Shown here: positions 6,691 through 33,911 of the stretch, in pieces
Layout: every line of letters begins with the position of its first letter
Position numbering within the stretch: the stretch's first letter is position 1
From: Thermoanaerobaculia bacterium
GTDB lineage: Bacteria > Acidobacteriota > Thermoanaerobaculia > UBA5066 > DATFVB01
Assembly (NCBI GenBank): GCA_035260525.1
Contig: DATFVB010000161.1
Coordinates: forward strand, 1-36,687
DNA length: 36,687 bases
Direction of reading: 5' to 3'
Translations under genes and position numbers: made by a program
The notes under the pieces: model-generated
Seen by the model: only the letters and a program-made list of their open reading frames with translations
The model's database searches: none
What the model was told of the DNA's origin: nothing

Positions 6691-7758
6691 TTGGCCCCCA
6701 ACGTTCTCTCGGCGGCCGACCTCCTGCTCGCGCTGACCGGCGTCGGGCTCGCGATCGAGCTCGCGCGCGTGCGGCGCCGCGAGCGCCGCTCCGCGGAGAT
6801 GCATCGCGAGCTCCAGAACGCAGCGCACGCCTTCGCGGAGTCGTTCGAGCCCGCCGCGATCGCGGCGCACGGCCACGAGGCGGCGAGCCGGCTGGCGACG
6901 CTGCGGCGCTTCGAGCTCTTCCTCTTCGACGAGAACGACCGCGTGCGCGAGGTCTGGCGCTCCGGCGAGAGCGACGCGTCGCCGGTCCGCGAGGAGCGGC
7001 ATCCGCGCCTCCAGGCGGCGATCACGCCGGAGCAGCTCGAGCCGCTCACGGCGACCGAGACCTCGCGCTCCTTCGCGCCGATCGATTTGCAGGACCCGCG
7101 CCGCTCACGGACGCGGTTCCATCTTCCGCTCTTCTCCGGGAGCCGCGCCGTCGGCTACTGGGAGCTCGAGTTCGCATCTCCACTCTCGCGAACCGAGCTC
7201 GAGCGTCTGCGGGCGATCTACCGCTCGCTGACCGACGCGGTCTACGCCGAGCGCAATTTCCGGCTCGCCGCGCGGGACGCGCTCTCGAATCTGTTCGTCC
7301 GCCGCTACTTCGACGGGCGCCTCGAGGCGGAGATCGCGCGCTCGGCCCGCTACGGCCACCCGCTCGCCGTCGCCGTCTTCGACCTCGATCACTTCAAAGC
7401 GATCAACGACGCCCACGGGCACGCGGCGGGCGACGAAGTCATTCGCGCGTTCGGCCGGCGTCTCCAGTCGACGCTGCGGGAGCAGGACCTCTCCGCGCGC
7501 CGCGGCGGCGAGGAGTTCGCGGCGTACTTCCCCGAGACGGACGCGGCGGCGGCGCTCGCCGTGTGCGAGCGCGTCCGCCGGCAGGTCGCCGGCCGGCCGC
7601 TCGCCTGGGAATCCGTCGAGATCCCGCTGACCGTCTCGGTCGGCGTCGCGGCGTGCCGCGCGGGTGACACGGCGGAAAGCCTTCTCGCCCGCGCCGACGC
7701 GGCGCTCTACGCGGCCAAGGAAGGCGGACGCAACCGTGCTATCGTCGCAGGCCCGTGA
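6691..7758 (+). CDS. Diguanylate cyclase (GGDEF domain)
   Basis: Makes cyclic di-GMP from two GTP. The 355-residue protein begins with a hydrophobic segment (residues ~5-27) followed by arginines, which fits a single membrane anchor with the rest cytoplasmic. Residues ~40-185 form a GAF-like sensor region by appearance only. The catalytic domain has FDLDHFKAINDAHGHAAGDE and the active-site GGEEF at 272-276. An inhibitory I-site RxxD (R263, D266) sits exactly five residues before GGEEF, so product feedback inhibition is expected. The usual DxLTxLxNR entry motif is altered (DALSNLFVRRYF). The start is TTG at 6691, preceded by a -10-like box and no Shine-Dalgarno. The stop overlaps the next start as GTGA. 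Confidence 0.93.
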   Translation: MAPNVLSAADLLLALTGVGLAIELARVRRRERRSAEMHRELQNAAHAFAESFEPAAIAAHGHEAASRLATLRRFELFLFDENDRVREVWRSGESDASPVREERHPRLQAAITPEQLEPLTATETSRSFAPIDLQDPRRSRTRFHLPLFSGSRAVGYWELEFASPLSRTELERLRAIYRSLTDAVYAERNFRLAARDALSNLFVRRYFDGRLEAEIARSARYGHPLAVAVFDLDHFKAINDAHGHAAGDEVIRAFGRRLQSTLREQDLSARRGGEEFAAYFPETDAAAALAVCERVRRQVAGRPLAWESVEIPLTVSVGVAACRAGDTAESLLARADAALYAAKEGGRNRAIVAGP

Positions 7759-28502: not shown

Positions 28503-29212
28503 GTCCCGCCTCCCGCGTCCCCCCGGAGGGCGAGATCCGCGCGCCCTCCGTGGGCCGCGTCGATCCGGATTCGCGACGGGATCCCGCCGCTCCACTCGGG
28601 AAAGCGAATCTCGACTCTGCGCCTCCCGTCGAGGGACACGACGCGGCGGGCGCGGCCCGACGGGTCGAGCTCGCACGACAACGCCCCTCCTCTCCACGAG
28701 AGCCACGGCGTGGCCCCGGCGAGCTCGACGCTCTCGGGGGGCGAAGCGTCGGGAAGCCCGAAGAGGAGGAGCGAGAGCGACGGCGCCGAGAGCGGAATCC
28801 CGAGCGGCGTGAGCGGCGCGTCTCCTTCGAACTCCCGGTCGTCTCGCGGATCCCCGGCGCGGCGCACGACCGTCCGGGCTCCGTCCCAGGAGGCTCGCGC
28901 CAGCGCAAGACCCGCCGGCCCCTCGAGGACGACCGTCAGAGATCGCCCGGGATCGTCGCGGACGGCGGCCACGCCGCTCGTCGAGAAGATGCTTCGCCGC
29001 GCCCGGGCGTCGTAGAAGAGCTCGGCCGCAGGACGCGCGAGAACCGCCTGCCGGAAGGTTTCCCAGCGCGCGACGATCGCGGCCGTTTCGGCGGCCGTCG
29101 CGGGACGGCGCGAAAGGCGGGTCGCGCACCCCGCCGCGGCGACGGCGAGACCCACCGCGAGCGCGGCACCGGTCCCGCGGCAGCGGGCACGGCGCCGATC
29201 AGGGCGTCGCAC
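28499..29212 (-). CDS. LolB-like outer-membrane lipoprotein
   Basis: A 237-residue lipoprotein. A signal peptide with a basic Arg-rich start ends in the lipobox VAAAGC, Cys29 being the lipidated residue. The mature part has alternating strands consistent with the LolB/LolA barrel fold (for example SLTVVLEGPAGLALARASWD and ALSCELDPSGRARRVVS). LolB receives lipoproteins from LolA and inserts them into the outer membrane. Similarity is weak by eye and DUF4292-like proteins are an alternative; placement between a TPR protein and ispE supports LolB. Its first 14 nt overlap the end of the upstream TPR gene. Confidence 0.65.
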   Translation of the reverse strand: MRRPDRRRARCRGTGAALAVGLAVAAAGCATRLSRRPATAAETAAIVARWETFRQAVLARPAAELFYDARARRSIFSTSGVAAVRDDPGRSLTVVLEGPAGLALARASWDGARTVVRRAGDPRDDREFEGDAPLTPLGIPLSAPSLSLLLFGLPDASPPESVELAGATPWLSWRGGALSCELDPSGRARRVVSLDGRRRVEIRFPEWSGGIPSRIRIDAAHGGRADLALRGDAGGGT

Positions 29213-31094
29213 CCGAATCGTGGATCTTCTTCGCGATCTTCTCGGGCTCGTCGGGCGAGAGCGTCAGCGACCGCTTCCAGTGGACCACCGCTTCCGCCAT
29301 CTGCCCGCGGCGCGCTTCCAGGTCGCCGAGGTGCTCCTGCACCGTCGCGTCGGCGGGGATCTTCTGCGCCGCCTTCGAGAGGAATTTCTCCGCCTCGCGG
29401 AGGTCGTTCATTCGGAAGCAGACCCAGCCGAGCGAGTCGAGAAACGCGCCGTTCTGCGGGTCCAGCGCGACCGCTCGCTCGAGCATCCGGCGCGCCTCGG
29501 CGAGCCGGATGCCCTTGTCGGCGTACATGTACCCGAGGTAGTTGAGCGTGTTCGCGTCGTCCGGGCGGGTCTTCAGGATCTCCTCGAAGACGGCTCCCGC
29601 CTCGTCGATCTTCCCGGTCCGCTCGAGCGCGGAGCCGAGCCGGAACATCAGGTCGAGGTTCCCTTCGAACCTCTTCACGCCGTCGGCGGCGATCTGCGCG
29701 GACGCCGCGAAGTCCTTGAGGCGCTCCCGGGCGTCGGCGGCGGCGAGAACCTCGCCGGCGATCCCGGACCGGGCGAGGTCGGCGAGCGTCTTCTCCCCCT
29801 CGGCGCGCGCGCCGGTTCGGATCTCGAATTCCGCGACGGCGCCCTTCCAGTCGGGATTCCCGGGTTCGGCGTCGGCGGCCTTCTTCGCCCACGCGAGCCC
29901 GTCGGCGGGCCGGTTCTCGTCGCGCGCGCGCTCGAGAAGCACTCCGAGGGAACGATCGGCGACGCCGTCCTTGCCGACCGCGGTCTCCGCGGCGATCTTC
30001 TTCGCCTCGTCGAAACGGCGATCGCCGTAGAGGAGCCCCGCGATCTCGGAGCGCACCTCGCGCGAGAGCTCCGGCTTCGAGGGGGGGACGCCGAGCCGGT
30101 CGACGAATTTCTGGAGGACGGCGATCGCCTCGGGACCTTTTCCGTCGCCGGAGAGCTGGTACGCGAGCGTTACGGCCGCGGTCGGGTCGTCCGGGTCCTC
30201 GTCGATCAGCTTCCGAAGCATTTCCACGGACTCCTCGGAACGCCCCTGAATGTCGAGCGCGGCGGCGAGCGTCCGGCGAGCCCCCCGGTCCTCGGGACGC
30301 GCGGCGACGAGCGCGCGAGCCTCCTTCTCCGCCTCCGCGAACCGGCCTCCCCGGAGCAGGTCGAGGGCGATCCGGTCGGCGACCGGCGTGTTGTCGGCCT
30401 CCGCGCGGCGAAGCTGGCGCAGGAGGTCGACCGCCCGGCCGAAGTCGCGCTGCGACTCCCAGAACTCGATCGACGAGGTCAGCGCATCCCGGTCCGTCGG
30501 GTCCGAGGCGAGCCACCGATCGTAATCCTGGCGCGCTTGCCCGTCGGCGCCGCGCTTGTCGTCGGCTTGCGCGCGCACCTTGATCGCGGCGGGGTTGTCG
30601 GCGAGCCCGGGGACGTCGTCGAGCGCCGCACGCGCGAGATCCGGGCGGCCGGAGAGGAGATGGGCCCGCGCGAGCGCGGCGGCGGTCCCGGGATTCTGGG
30701 GAGCGAGCCGGTGCGCTTTCTCGAGAGCGGCGACCGCGGACGGGACCCGCGAGGGGTCCTTGTCGGCGGCGGCGAGATCGATCGCCCCCGCCAGGCGCCA
30801 GGCGGATTCGAACGAGGGGTCGAGCTCGGCGGCGCGTCCGGCTTCCTTGCGCGCCTCGTCGTCGACGCCCATCTGCTGGAGGAGGACCGCGAGCTCGAAA
30901 TGGACCACCGGGTCGTCGGGCGCGAGCGTGGCCGCCTTGCGGAAGTCGCCGAGGGCCTGCTCGAACTTGCCCTCGGCCTCCGCCATTTTCGCCGACAGGA
31001 AGGTCTCGCGGATGGCGATGACGGGGTCCTCCGCCGCGAAAACCGGCGCCGCTCCCGCCCCGAGGACCAGCAACAGCAGCCATTTCGCCCTCAT
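29199..31094 (-). CDS. Exported TPR-repeat protein
   Basis: A 631-residue secreted protein. Residues 1-20 (MRAKWLLLLVLGAGAAPVFA) are a signal peptide without a lipobox. The rest is a long array of tetratricopeptide repeats, clearest at the two ends: EGKFEQALGDFRKAATLAPDD near the start and TLNYLGYMYADKGIRLAEAR, AFLDSLGWVCFRMNDLREAE near residue 540-580. The C-terminal repeats resemble the common annotation of TPR proteins tied to envelope biogenesis. A periplasmic scaffold that works with the LolB-like protein next door is inferred. The ATG at 31094 follows TATTCT by 6 nt with no Shine-Dalgarno, and heads a five-gene minus-strand operon. Confidence 0.9.
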   Translation of the reverse strand: MRAKWLLLLVLGAGAAPVFAAEDPVIAIRETFLSAKMAEAEGKFEQALGDFRKAATLAPDDPVVHFELAVLLQQMGVDDEARKEAGRAAELDPSFESAWRLAGAIDLAAADKDPSRVPSAVAALEKAHRLAPQNPGTAAALARAHLLSGRPDLARAALDDVPGLADNPAAIKVRAQADDKRGADGQARQDYDRWLASDPTDRDALTSSIEFWESQRDFGRAVDLLRQLRRAEADNTPVADRIALDLLRGGRFAEAEKEARALVAARPEDRGARRTLAAALDIQGRSEESVEMLRKLIDEDPDDPTAAVTLAYQLSGDGKGPEAIAVLQKFVDRLGVPPSKPELSREVRSEIAGLLYGDRRFDEAKKIAAETAVGKDGVADRSLGVLLERARDENRPADGLAWAKKAADAEPGNPDWKGAVAEFEIRTGARAEGEKTLADLARSGIAGEVLAAADARERLKDFAASAQIAADGVKRFEGNLDLMFRLGSALERTGKIDEAGAVFEEILKTRPDDANTLNYLGYMYADKGIRLAEARRMLERAVALDPQNGAFLDSLGWVCFRMNDLREAEKFLSKAAQKIPADATVQEHLGDLEARRGQMAEAVVHWKRSLTLSPDEPEKIAKKIHDSGATP

Positions 31095-31100
31095 TCGCCC

Positions 31101-31106
31101 AGAATA
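31101..31106 (-). promoter_or_regulatory. -10 box for a leaderless TPR operon mRNA
   Basis: TATTCT on the minus strand, then 6 nt, then the ATG at 31094. The operon TPR-LolB-ispE-spoVG-PQQ would start here. Confidence 0.55.
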
Positions 31107-31169: not shown

Positions 31170-32603
31170 ATGTCGAAGCTCGGGGAAACTCTTTTGTCGA
31201 TCGGCGCGCTGTCGGCGGGAGCGCTCAACCGCGCGCTGATGCTCCAGCGATCGACCGGCGGACGCCTCGGCACGATCCTGCTCGAGCAGGGGCTCGTGAC
31301 GGAGGAGACGCTGGCCCGCGCGCTCGCGAAGACGACCGGGCGAAACTACGCGCACTGGAACCGCGTGAAGAACGCGTCGCGCGACGTCGTCACGCTCGTT
31401 CCGGCGCGGATCGCGATCCGCGCGCTCGCGATCCCTTTCGAGCACGAAGGACGCGTCCTGCGGGTCGCGATGCGGGACCCGAACGACCTCGCGGCCGAAG
31501 ACGAGCTCGCGTTGGTGACCGGCAAGCGGATCGAGCCGTGGGTGACGGCAGAGTTCCGCGTCGCCGAGGCGCTCGAGCGCTTCTACGGCGAGCGGCGGTC
31601 GGCGCGCTTCCGGGTGCTCTCGGAACGGCTCGAGAGAGGCATCCGGCCCCCCTCGACGCCGGCCGCGCCGCCGCCTCCCCCGCCCGACCTTCGAGGAGAA
31701 CGGACGGGTCCCTTGGCCGACCTGACGCCCGTGCCCGGCCGGACCTCGGACGTCTGGAAGATCACGCGCGAGGTCTCCGACGAGATCGAGATCGCGACCT
31801 GGCGGCCGGCGGCGCCGTTCGTGCGCCCGACGACCCCGACGCCGACCGGGGAGCTCGAATTCTCGATCGAGGAGCTCGAGGAGGAGGCGGCCGTCCCGTC
31901 CGCGCCCCCGGCGTCTCCCGCGCCGCCTCCGACTGCCGAAGCCCCGCGGGCGCCCGCCGGCGCCGCGCCGGCAGCGGCAACCCCGGCCGCCCCTTCGATG
32001 CCGCCTCGGGAAACACCGGAGATCCATGCGCCGGCCCCCGCCGTGCCGACGGGCCGGCCGAAACCGGGAAGAAAGAAGGAAGTCACGGCGAAAGCCGCGC
32101 CGGAGACGGCTCCGGCGCCTCCCGCCGCAATCTCGCTCGGCCAGGCCCGTGAAAGGATCCTTTCCGCCCAGGCGCGCGACGACATCGCCGAGGCCGTCCT
32201 CGACCGCCTCGCCGGCCCGAGCCCGCTCGTGGCGCTCTTGATCGCCCGCAAGGACGACGTCATCGGATGGCACGCACGGGGCGAGGGGGTGTCCCGGAGC
32301 GCGCTTCGTTCGATCCGCATCCCCTTCACCGAGCCCTCCATCTTCTTGAACGTCAAGCTCTCCGGAACGCCCTACGTGGGGCTGCTTCCCGACCTCCCGT
32401 CTCACGAGGCGCTGCTCGAGGGTCTGGGGAGGCGCCCCGGCCGGAGCGCGGTTTACCCCGTTTTTCTGAAGAACCGGGTCGTGGCATTCATCCTGGCCGA
32501 GCTCCCCGCGGGCACGGAGGACCTCGCCGCGCTGGCCGCTTCGATGGCGGAGGGCTTCGCCGCCCTCATTCTTCAGCAGCGGGGGCGGGCCGAGTCGGCT
32601 TGA
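31170..32603 (+). CDS. MshEN-domain protein, putative c-di-GMP receptor without ATPase
   Basis: A 477-residue protein with the N-terminal domain of GspE/MshE-type secretion ATPases but no Walker A ATPase. Residues 3-26 and 32-55 are two copies of the 24-residue motif RLGxxLxxxGxxxxxxLxxAL separated by exactly five residues, the known c-di-GMP binding signature of MshEN; the first copy has Lys for Arg and the second lacks the final Gln. A GspE_N-like fold continues to ~130. A Pro/Ala-rich linker (~160-325) leads to a C-terminal domain of unknown type (~330-477). It likely relays c-di-GMP levels to a partner. Start 31170 is chosen over 31161 because of the -10 box. Confidence 0.85.
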   Translation: MSKLGETLLSIGALSAGALNRALMLQRSTGGRLGTILLEQGLVTEETLARALAKTTGRNYAHWNRVKNASRDVVTLVPARIAIRALAIPFEHEGRVLRVAMRDPNDLAAEDELALVTGKRIEPWVTAEFRVAEALERFYGERRSARFRVLSERLERGIRPPSTPAAPPPPPPDLRGERTGPLADLTPVPGRTSDVWKITREVSDEIEIATWRPAAPFVRPTTPTPTGELEFSIEELEEEAAVPSAPPASPAPPPTAEAPRAPAGAAPAAATPAAPSMPPRETPEIHAPAPAVPTGRPKPGRKKEVTAKAAPETAPAPPAAISLGQARERILSAQARDDIAEAVLDRLAGPSPLVALLIARKDDVIGWHARGEGVSRSALRSIRIPFTEPSIFLNVKLSGTPYVGLLPDLPSHEALLEGLGRRPGRSAVYPVFLKNRVVAFILAELPAGTEDLAALAASMAEGFAALILQQRGRAESA

Positions 32604-32662: not shown

Positions 32663-32959
32663 ATGATCAAAGCGGATATCGTGGACCGTCTTTTCGAGGA
32701 AGCGTCGATCCCGCGGCCGAAAGCGATCACCGCCGTGGAGACGGTCATCGACGCGCTCCGGCAGGCGCTCGGAGCGGGCGACCGGATCGAGCTCCGAGGA
32801 TTCGGAGTTTTCGAAGTGAAGCGCCGAAAGCGCGGCATCGGCCGCAACCCGAAGACGGGAGTCGAGGTCGCGATCCCTCCGGGCAACACGATCCGCTTCA
32901 AGCCGGGCAAGGAGCTGCGTGACATGCGCGACGACTCCGCGCCCACCGCTTCCTCCTGA
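32663..32959 (+). CDS. HU/IHF family DNA-binding protein
   Basis: A 98-residue nucleoid protein that bends DNA as a dimer. The signature RGFGVFEVKRRKRGIGRNPKTG spans residues ~45-66 and is followed by the PPGNTIRFKPGKELR end of the fold, which resembles IHF-alpha more than HU. A short Ser/Thr/Ala tail of about ten residues is extra. GAGGG precedes the ATG at 32663 by 9 nt, and the gene has its own promoter, so independent strong expression is likely. HU versus IHF cannot be decided from this copy. Confidence 0.94.
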   Translation: MIKADIVDRLFEEASIPRPKAITAVETVIDALRQALGAGDRIELRGFGVFEVKRRKRGIGRNPKTGVEVAIPPGNTIRFKPGKELRDMRDDSAPTASS

Positions 32960-32981: not shown

Positions 32982-33911
32982 ATGAGGTTCCTTACGGGCC
33001 GGCGGCGGCTTTCGCTCCCGACCACTCCCGCCTTTCACCTCCTGCTTCTCGGCATCACCGCACTCACGACGACGATCGTGCCTTTCGGCAGCTCATGGGG
33101 AATCTTCTCGGACCGTCCGCTCTCCGAAAGCCTCATCGATCCCGCGATGTGGCGGATCGGCGCCTCGTTCTCGGTGCCTTTGCTCGCGATCCTCGGAATC
33201 CACGAGCTCGGTCACATGATCGCCTGCCGGCGGTACGGGCTTCCCGCGACCTACCCGTACTTCATTCCCGCTCCGATCGGCGTCGGCACGTTCGGCGCGG
33301 TCATCAAGATCCGCGCGCCGATCACCTCGAGGAAGACGCTCTTCGACGTCGGCGCGGCCGGGCCGCTCGCGGGATTCGCCGTGGCGGTGCCGATCGCCGT
33401 GTGGGGCATCGCGATCTCCCGCGTGACGACGGCGGTCCCCTCAGGCGACTACCTCGATTTCGGCGAGCCTCTGTTTTTCCGCCTGGTCGAGCGTCTCGTC
33501 CACCCCGGAATGCCGCCGGGCGCTGAGCTCGCCCTCTCGCCGCTGGGATTCGCGGGCTGGTTCGGCCTCTTCGTGACGGCGCTGAACCTCCTGCCGCTGG
33601 CGCAGCTCGACGGCGGCCACATCCTCTACGCGGCGGCCGGAAGAGCGCAGCGGACGATCGGCTTCGCGCTCTTCGCCGTGCTCATCGGCCTCGCCTTCCT
33701 CTGGCCGGGATGGATCCTGTGGGTGCTCATCGTTCTGCTGATGGGAATCGCGCATCCTCCGACGGCGGACCCGGCCGAGCGGCTCGACCCGAAACGCCTC
33801 GTGCTCGCGCTCGTCTGCCTTCTCGTCTTTGCGCTGTCGTTCACGCCGGTCCCGATCCGGATGGTCAGCGCTCCGCCGCACCCGCGGCCGCCGAGAACCT
33901 ATCAGTTGTGA
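32982..33911 (+). CDS. Site-2-protease-like M50 metalloprotease
   Basis: Intramembrane zinc protease of 309 residues. The zinc-binding HELGH lies at 74-78 inside the second membrane segment and the third ligand in NLLPLAQLDGGH near residue 210; GAVIKIRAPITSRKTLFD between them is typical of the group also found in plant EGY proteins. About six to seven membrane segments. There is no PDZ domain, unlike RseP. Substrates are unknown; relatives release membrane-bound regulators. The ATG at 32982 lies 22 nt after the HU stop; a longer start at 32919 would overlap HU. Confidence 0.9.
   Translation: MRFLTGRRRLSLPTTPAFHLLLLGITALTTTIVPFGSSWGIFSDRPLSESLIDPAMWRIGASFSVPLLAILGIHELGHMIACRRYGLPATYPYFIPAPIGVGTFGAVIKIRAPITSRKTLFDVGAAGPLAGFAVAVPIAVWGIAISRVTTAVPSGDYLDFGEPLFFRLVERLVHPGMPPGAELALSPLGFAGWFGLFVTALNLLPLAQLDGGHILYAAAGRAQRTIGFALFAVLIGLAFLWPGWILWVLIVLLMGIAHPPTADPAERLDPKRLVLALVCLLVFALSFTPVPIRMVSAPPHPRPPRTYQL

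Follow-up and report, generated by a model that had tools for sequence, protein, structure and literature searches.

Gene and domain layout of the locus

The window, the whole stretch of 36,687 nucleotides that was analysed, carries near its end a gene for a protein in which an N-terminal MshEN domain, a predicted sensor of the bacterial signal molecule cyclic di-GMP (c-di-GMP), is joined through a long linker to a C-terminal domain whose model identifies it as a GAF domain (Table 1). GAF domains are widespread and serve in dimerisation or in the binding of small molecules. Compared with the ortholog of a sister species in the same genus (G001; 77.5% amino acid identity), the gene differs at 75 first, 42 second, and 194 third codon positions. 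This pattern indicates that the forward frame is under purifying selection and is a real protein-coding gene. Long spurious frames are abundant on both strands of this DNA, which has a G+C content of 71%, and the long antisense frames across the gene were rejected as by-products of that composition, the selection signature lying in the forward frame. Both domains are 82-83% identical to those of the sister ortholog and the linker is 66% identical.

Table 1. Features of the MshEN-linker-GAF locus and related genes of the window
Feature	Position	Strand	Evidence
MshEN-linker-GAF protein, 477 aa	31170..32603	+	Open frame; codon-position divergence; conserved in class relatives
Whole MshEN domain, residues 1-141, four-helix bundle and alpha/beta subdomain	31170..31592	+	Pfam MshEN; structure model
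c-di-GMP motif I, residues 3-26, KLGETLLSIGALSAGALNRALMLQ, 9/11 strict positions	31176..31247	+	NF053729; consensus audit
c-di-GMP motif II, residues 32-55, RLGTILLEQGLVTEETLARALAKT, 10/11 strict positions, last Q replaced by T	31263..31334	+	NF053729; consensus audit
Disordered Pro/Ala-rich linker, residues ~158-314	31641..32111	+	pLDDT; composition
Predicted GAF domain, residues ~320-477, N-terminal helices and long C-terminal helix	32127..32600	+	Model; Foldseek; VIA; Pfam in relatives
IHF/HU-family DNA-binding protein, syntenic partner	32663..32959	+	Pfam Bac_DNA_binding E 1.4e-25; after MshEN-GAF in 21 genomes
M50 site-2-type membrane protease, syntenic partner	32982..33911	+	Pfam Peptidase_M50 E 3.4e-19; HELGH, LDGGH; 19 genomes
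TPR-repeat protein, divergent upstream gene	29202..31106	-	Pfam TPR families; similar placement in several relatives
GGDEF protein, GGEEF and I-site RxxD, possible ligand source	6691..7758	+	Pfam GGDEF E 3.1e-42; motif

The linker is rich in Pro and Ala (41 and 30, respectively, per 168 residues), and pLDDT stayed below 50 across nearly all of residues 158-313 in the full-length model, consistent with a disordered segment. The preliminary description of this DNA had put the linker at about 165 residues, in agreement with our estimate of ~160-165. No hydrophobic membrane segment was found by a scan of the 477-residue protein, and no catalytic, DNA-binding, or membrane part was recognised in it. 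A motif scan of the same 477 residues gave no Walker A match, and no Pfam ATPase family matched the window protein; the predicted GAF domain takes the place of the ATPase at the C-terminus. The earlier reading of the gene as an MshEN-type receptor that lacks a secretion ATPase is thus upheld.

The presence in the window of a GGDEF enzyme with an I-site had also been proposed, and could be verified. In the product of the GGDEF gene the RxxD lies five residues upstream of GGEEF, and no second Pfam domain was matched in this protein. The gene is divergent from the ffh gene. The assembled genome as a whole contains ~20 GGDEF matches, three PilZ matches, and three MshEN genes, namely the window gene and a pair on contig 338 that encode ATPase P-loops. 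Of the latter two, one lacks the c-di-GMP motif when audited in the same way as the window protein.

The MshEN domain and the predicted GAF domain

Residues 3-54 matched the NCBIfam model NF053729, 'c-di-GMP_motif', with an E-value of 5.7e-15 (54.8 bits against a cut-off of 38), which places the 24-5-24 motif far above chance. The two 24-residue motifs are separated by a spacer of five residues (27-31). As a strict consensus we used the 22 positions of Wang et al. (PMC5013675), of which the window protein retains 19. The deviating residues are K3, a Lys for Arg at position 1 of motif I; A13, an Ala for Leu, Val, or Ile at position 11 of the same motif; and T55, a Thr for Gln at the end of motif II, where the sister species has Val. 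The motif had been called exact, which is correct for the spacing but not for the residues.

Beyond the motifs, Pfam MshEN (PF05157) matched residues 69-144 with an E-value of 1.9e-16 (60.2 bits against a cut-off of 23.1). With phmmer, MshE (5htl) was matched at an E-value of 1.6e-10, and PilB and PilF chains also match by sequence. The full-length predicted model has the four-helix bundle and alpha/beta subdomain at its N-terminus, and its residues 2-139 align with chain B of 5htl, MshE with c-di-GMP, with a Z-score of 17.6 and an rmsd of 2.9 over 137 residues at 31% identity.

Published work on PilF of T. thermophilus provides a guide to the substituted positions. Lys occurs naturally at motif position 1 in the GSPII-B domain, which has a KD of 6 nM, and in other tight binders, and the first-position consensus was widened to R/K/L in that study (PMC11731258). 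By phmmer alignment, T55 corresponds to Gln218 of GSPII-B, where mutation to Glu lowers the affinity 77-fold and still leaves a KD of ~460 nM (PMC11731258). By analogy with these data for Lys and Gln218, it is plausible that the window protein binds c-di-GMP with high-nanomolar to low-micromolar affinity. A good motif is no guarantee of binding, as restoring the consensus in the full GSPII-A domain of PilF did not make it bind (PMC12002112). On balance, we consider it likely that the MshEN domain of the window protein binds c-di-GMP.

The C-terminal region had been described as unidentified and as a possible new effector module. A model of residues 316-477, built from a five-sequence alignment, reached a mean pLDDT of 91.1 and a pTM of 0.87, with helices at model positions 8-16, 21-32, and 134-161. 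The top Foldseek match in the PDB was the cAMP-bound GAF domain of Lcd1 (5w10, E-value 9.5e-8), and nearly all listed matches were GAF domains. VIA-align gave a Z-score of 17.1 to 3oov (rmsd 2.2, 143 residues aligned) and 15.6 to 5w10, with values of 15-17 across several GAF domains. The sequence signal is fainter: the window protein itself has no Pfam GAF match, 14 of 32 aligned relatives match Pfam GAF_2 (best E-value 2.9e-7), and a single relative passes the GAF profile cut-off. The GAF profile run against PDB sequences returned weak matches, mostly GAF domains, at E-values of 0.06 and above, and the assignment therefore rests on structure. As modelled, the C-terminus from about residue 320 to 477 is a GAF domain rather than a new module.

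The NKFDE pattern of animal cyclic-nucleotide GAF domains was absent from the window protein and from 42 of 43 family members, and present in one of the 43. The window GAF domain contains no Cys, and the Cys count varies among members with none conserved. Phytochrome-like or bilin-binding GAF domains and free methionine-R-sulfoxide reductase were rejected as identities on this ground, and with NKFDE missing as well, a role as thiol enzyme, bilin sensor, or classical cyclic-nucleotide GAF is unlikely. Dimerisation of Lcd1 needs helix alpha1, and the Leptospira GAZ domain is monomeric partly because its first helix is missing (PMC11800159). Unlike GAZ, the modelled window domain keeps its flanking helices, from which we infer, with moderate confidence, that the protein would dimerise through its GAF end.

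Family, gene neighbourhood, and possible function

The window protein was matched in 51 of 61 near relatives, a count that includes PilB-type ATPases. Among 199 genomes drawn from across the phylum Acidobacteriota, the GAF domain alone was matched in 53. Named records with the family are from Acidobacteria. A contig scan with a narrow GAF alignment yielded just two loci, which belonged to the Acidobacteriota set identified before, and the single match in a plasmid collection was an ATPase. The usual layout is MshEN-linker-GAF, and a minority of members (e.g. L054, L055, L057, L058, L062) have the GAF domain without MshEN in front. These MshEN-less proteins, L063 among them, share a C-terminal tail with a conserved ARxLVS(D/E)I-LYN-like stretch, and scans of two of them revealed no further family besides GAF. 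In a FastTree phylogeny of the domains, members grouped largely by gene context. The MshEN-linker-GAF fusion thus looks like a conserved, vertically inherited family in Acidobacteriota, with a genomic location that is stable within clades and different between them.

Between 31170 and 36330 the window has the order MshEN-GAF, IHF/HU, M50, and later SSB, an order conserved in ~20 genomes of the class. Across the class, the IHF/HU gene follows MshEN-GAF in 21 genomes, in nearly all of them within ~70 bases; the M50 gene comes after IHF/HU in 19, and SSB further on in 17. Two relatives (L064, L065) have a second MshEN-GAF gene in the cluster, between IHF and M50. In 13 genomes of other groups (L082, L084, L085, L107-L116), the MshEN-GAF gene lies directly after pnp in a truB-rpsO-pnp cluster, and six genomes have it in the vicinity of fumarase/malate dehydrogenase genes. 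A response of PNPase to c-di-GMP has been reported in E. coli, which makes a possible link between pnp and MshEN-GAF of interest. Because placement differs between clades, the neighbouring genes give only a hint of a partner.

The strict motif score ranged from 11 to 20 of 22 in 36 family members, with a mean of 16.3. PilB ATPases of class relatives scored 16-19 of 22 in the same audit, so that the window protein is among the best of its family and equal to or above these ATPases. Judged by sequence, this spread suggests that predicted c-di-GMP binding probably varies across the family, being kept by some members and lost by others.

We considered several explanations for this protein. A decayed fragment of a pilus or secretion ATPase would account for an N-terminal domain that is the same as that of PilB. 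It is contradicted by the lack of any ATPase remnant, by the structured GAF domain found instead, by in-frame purifying selection, and by conservation of MshEN-linker-GAF, with its gene order, over dozens of Acidobacteriota genomes; we give this explanation practically no credence, the protein being neither a stray nor a truncated ATPase. A more serious alternative is that the MshEN domain serves for protein docking, with c-di-GMP binding lost or being lost, and that true sensing, or dimerisation, falls to the GAF domain. Many members score only 11-15 of 22, some of them in the same gene cluster, the last residue of motif II is Thr in the window protein and Val in its sister species, and XpsE, a known MshEN domain that has lost c-di-GMP binding (PMC5013675), offers a precedent. 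The site of the window protein is nevertheless not obviously broken, with 19 positions kept and a Lys that is compatible with tight binding, and we regard loss of binding as a minority view that deserves some weight.

The GAF domain could instead bind a second messenger such as cAMP, the protein integrating two nucleotide signals. The best Foldseek match was the cAMP-bound Lcd1 domain; other GAF domains gave equal Z-scores, however, fold likeness says nothing of the ligand, and NKFDE occurs in only one member, making this improbable. The gene order raises another alternative, in which MshEN-GAF is the c-di-GMP-tuned part of a unit of IHF/HU and site-2 protease, serving regulated intramembrane proteolysis or chromatin-linked gene control. 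The close and recurrent adjacency described above favours such a unit, as do the intact HExxH and LDG motifs of the M50 protein. As the same family also occurs behind pnp and beside fumarase or malate dehydrogenase genes, the partnership does not hold generally. The M50 gene is missing from its usual place in two class members that have IHF, and housekeeping clusters can persist without direct interaction. We judge this unit unlikely. Less likely still is its fuller form, a hitherto undescribed family of c-di-GMP adaptors with an MshEN domain and a GAF dimer or second-ligand sensor that acts with the IHF-like protein and the site-2 protease; if true, c-di-GMP in Acidobacteriota would act beyond the pilus, on regulated proteolysis or on gene control.

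Our preferred explanation, to which we assign about an even chance, is a soluble two-domain c-di-GMP receptor and adaptor. Binding of c-di-GMP to the MshEN head would alter docking on a partner, the GAF end, with its N-terminal and long C-terminal helices, would hold the protein as a dimer, and a second small ligand may be bound there. For the adaptor role taken by itself, we lean towards acceptance. The partner would most likely belong to the type IV pilus machine, since the pilus ATPase PilB has this same MshEN domain at its N-terminus, although pilus machinery as the target is a guess and, taken alone, a tentative one. Of the 53 genomes with the GAF domain, 52 had a strong PilM match (E-value below 1e-30, a cut that we chose), compared with 112 of the 146 without it (Fisher p 2e-4). 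This association is confounded by relatedness, as PilM-less genomes cluster in a small number of families, and PilM is present almost throughout the phylum; it therefore adds little to the case for a pilus link. No pilus genes were noted adjoining the family members examined. Eight genomes of one genus (g18; G025, G028, G031, G034, G037, G043, G046, G049) each have a single weaker MshEN match and no match to the window protein or to PilM; related genera have all three.

Few c-di-GMP receptors are known compared with the many enzymes that make the molecule, and Acidobacteriota are poorly studied, with little experimental work on c-di-GMP. That a conserved MshEN family does without the ATPase and carries a second domain of sensor type presents the receptor as a portable part and offers a testable target in this phylum, and motif variation inside one family provides a way to separate binding from docking functions.

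Comparison with known systems

The window protein has its N-terminal domain and 24-5-24 c-di-GMP site in common with MshE of Vibrio cholerae (5htl; PMC5013675). MshE carries a pilus ATPase, whereas the window protein has the long disordered linker and predicted GAF domain instead, and three of its consensus residues differ. T. thermophilus PilF GSPII-B (8pdk; PMC11731258) is likewise of MshEN type, both proteins have Lys at motif position 1, and the model aligns with a Z-score of 16.3. GSPII-B is part of a pilus ATPase and keeps the last Gln of motif II, where the window protein has Thr.

MshEN proteins without an ATPase include FrgA of M. xanthus, PA3740, and NfrB, and MshEN is also joined to REC, HD-GYP, CheA, and CheX (PMC5013675). 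In all of these, as in the window protein, MshEN is joined to a non-ATPase part; for FrgA and PA3740 it consists of uncharacterised domains (PMC5013675). The main text of that paper does not list GAF among the partners of MshEN, and titles, abstracts, and open-access passages yielded no description of an MshEN-GAF fusion. Leptospira YcgR-GAZ (PMC11800159) resembles the window protein in that it unites a c-di-GMP receptor and a GAF-like domain in a single polypeptide. Its receptor is PilZ and its GAF domain is inserted and lacks the dimerisation helix, while the predicted GAF domain here is terminal and keeps its helices. The GAF domain of Lcd1, the closest GAF fold by Foldseek, binds cAMP and regulates a diguanylate cyclase; no cyclase is attached to the window protein. 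The joining of MshEN to non-ATPase domains is already known, and what is new here is the clear assignment, from the model, of a GAF domain as its partner together with a conserved gene neighbourhood.
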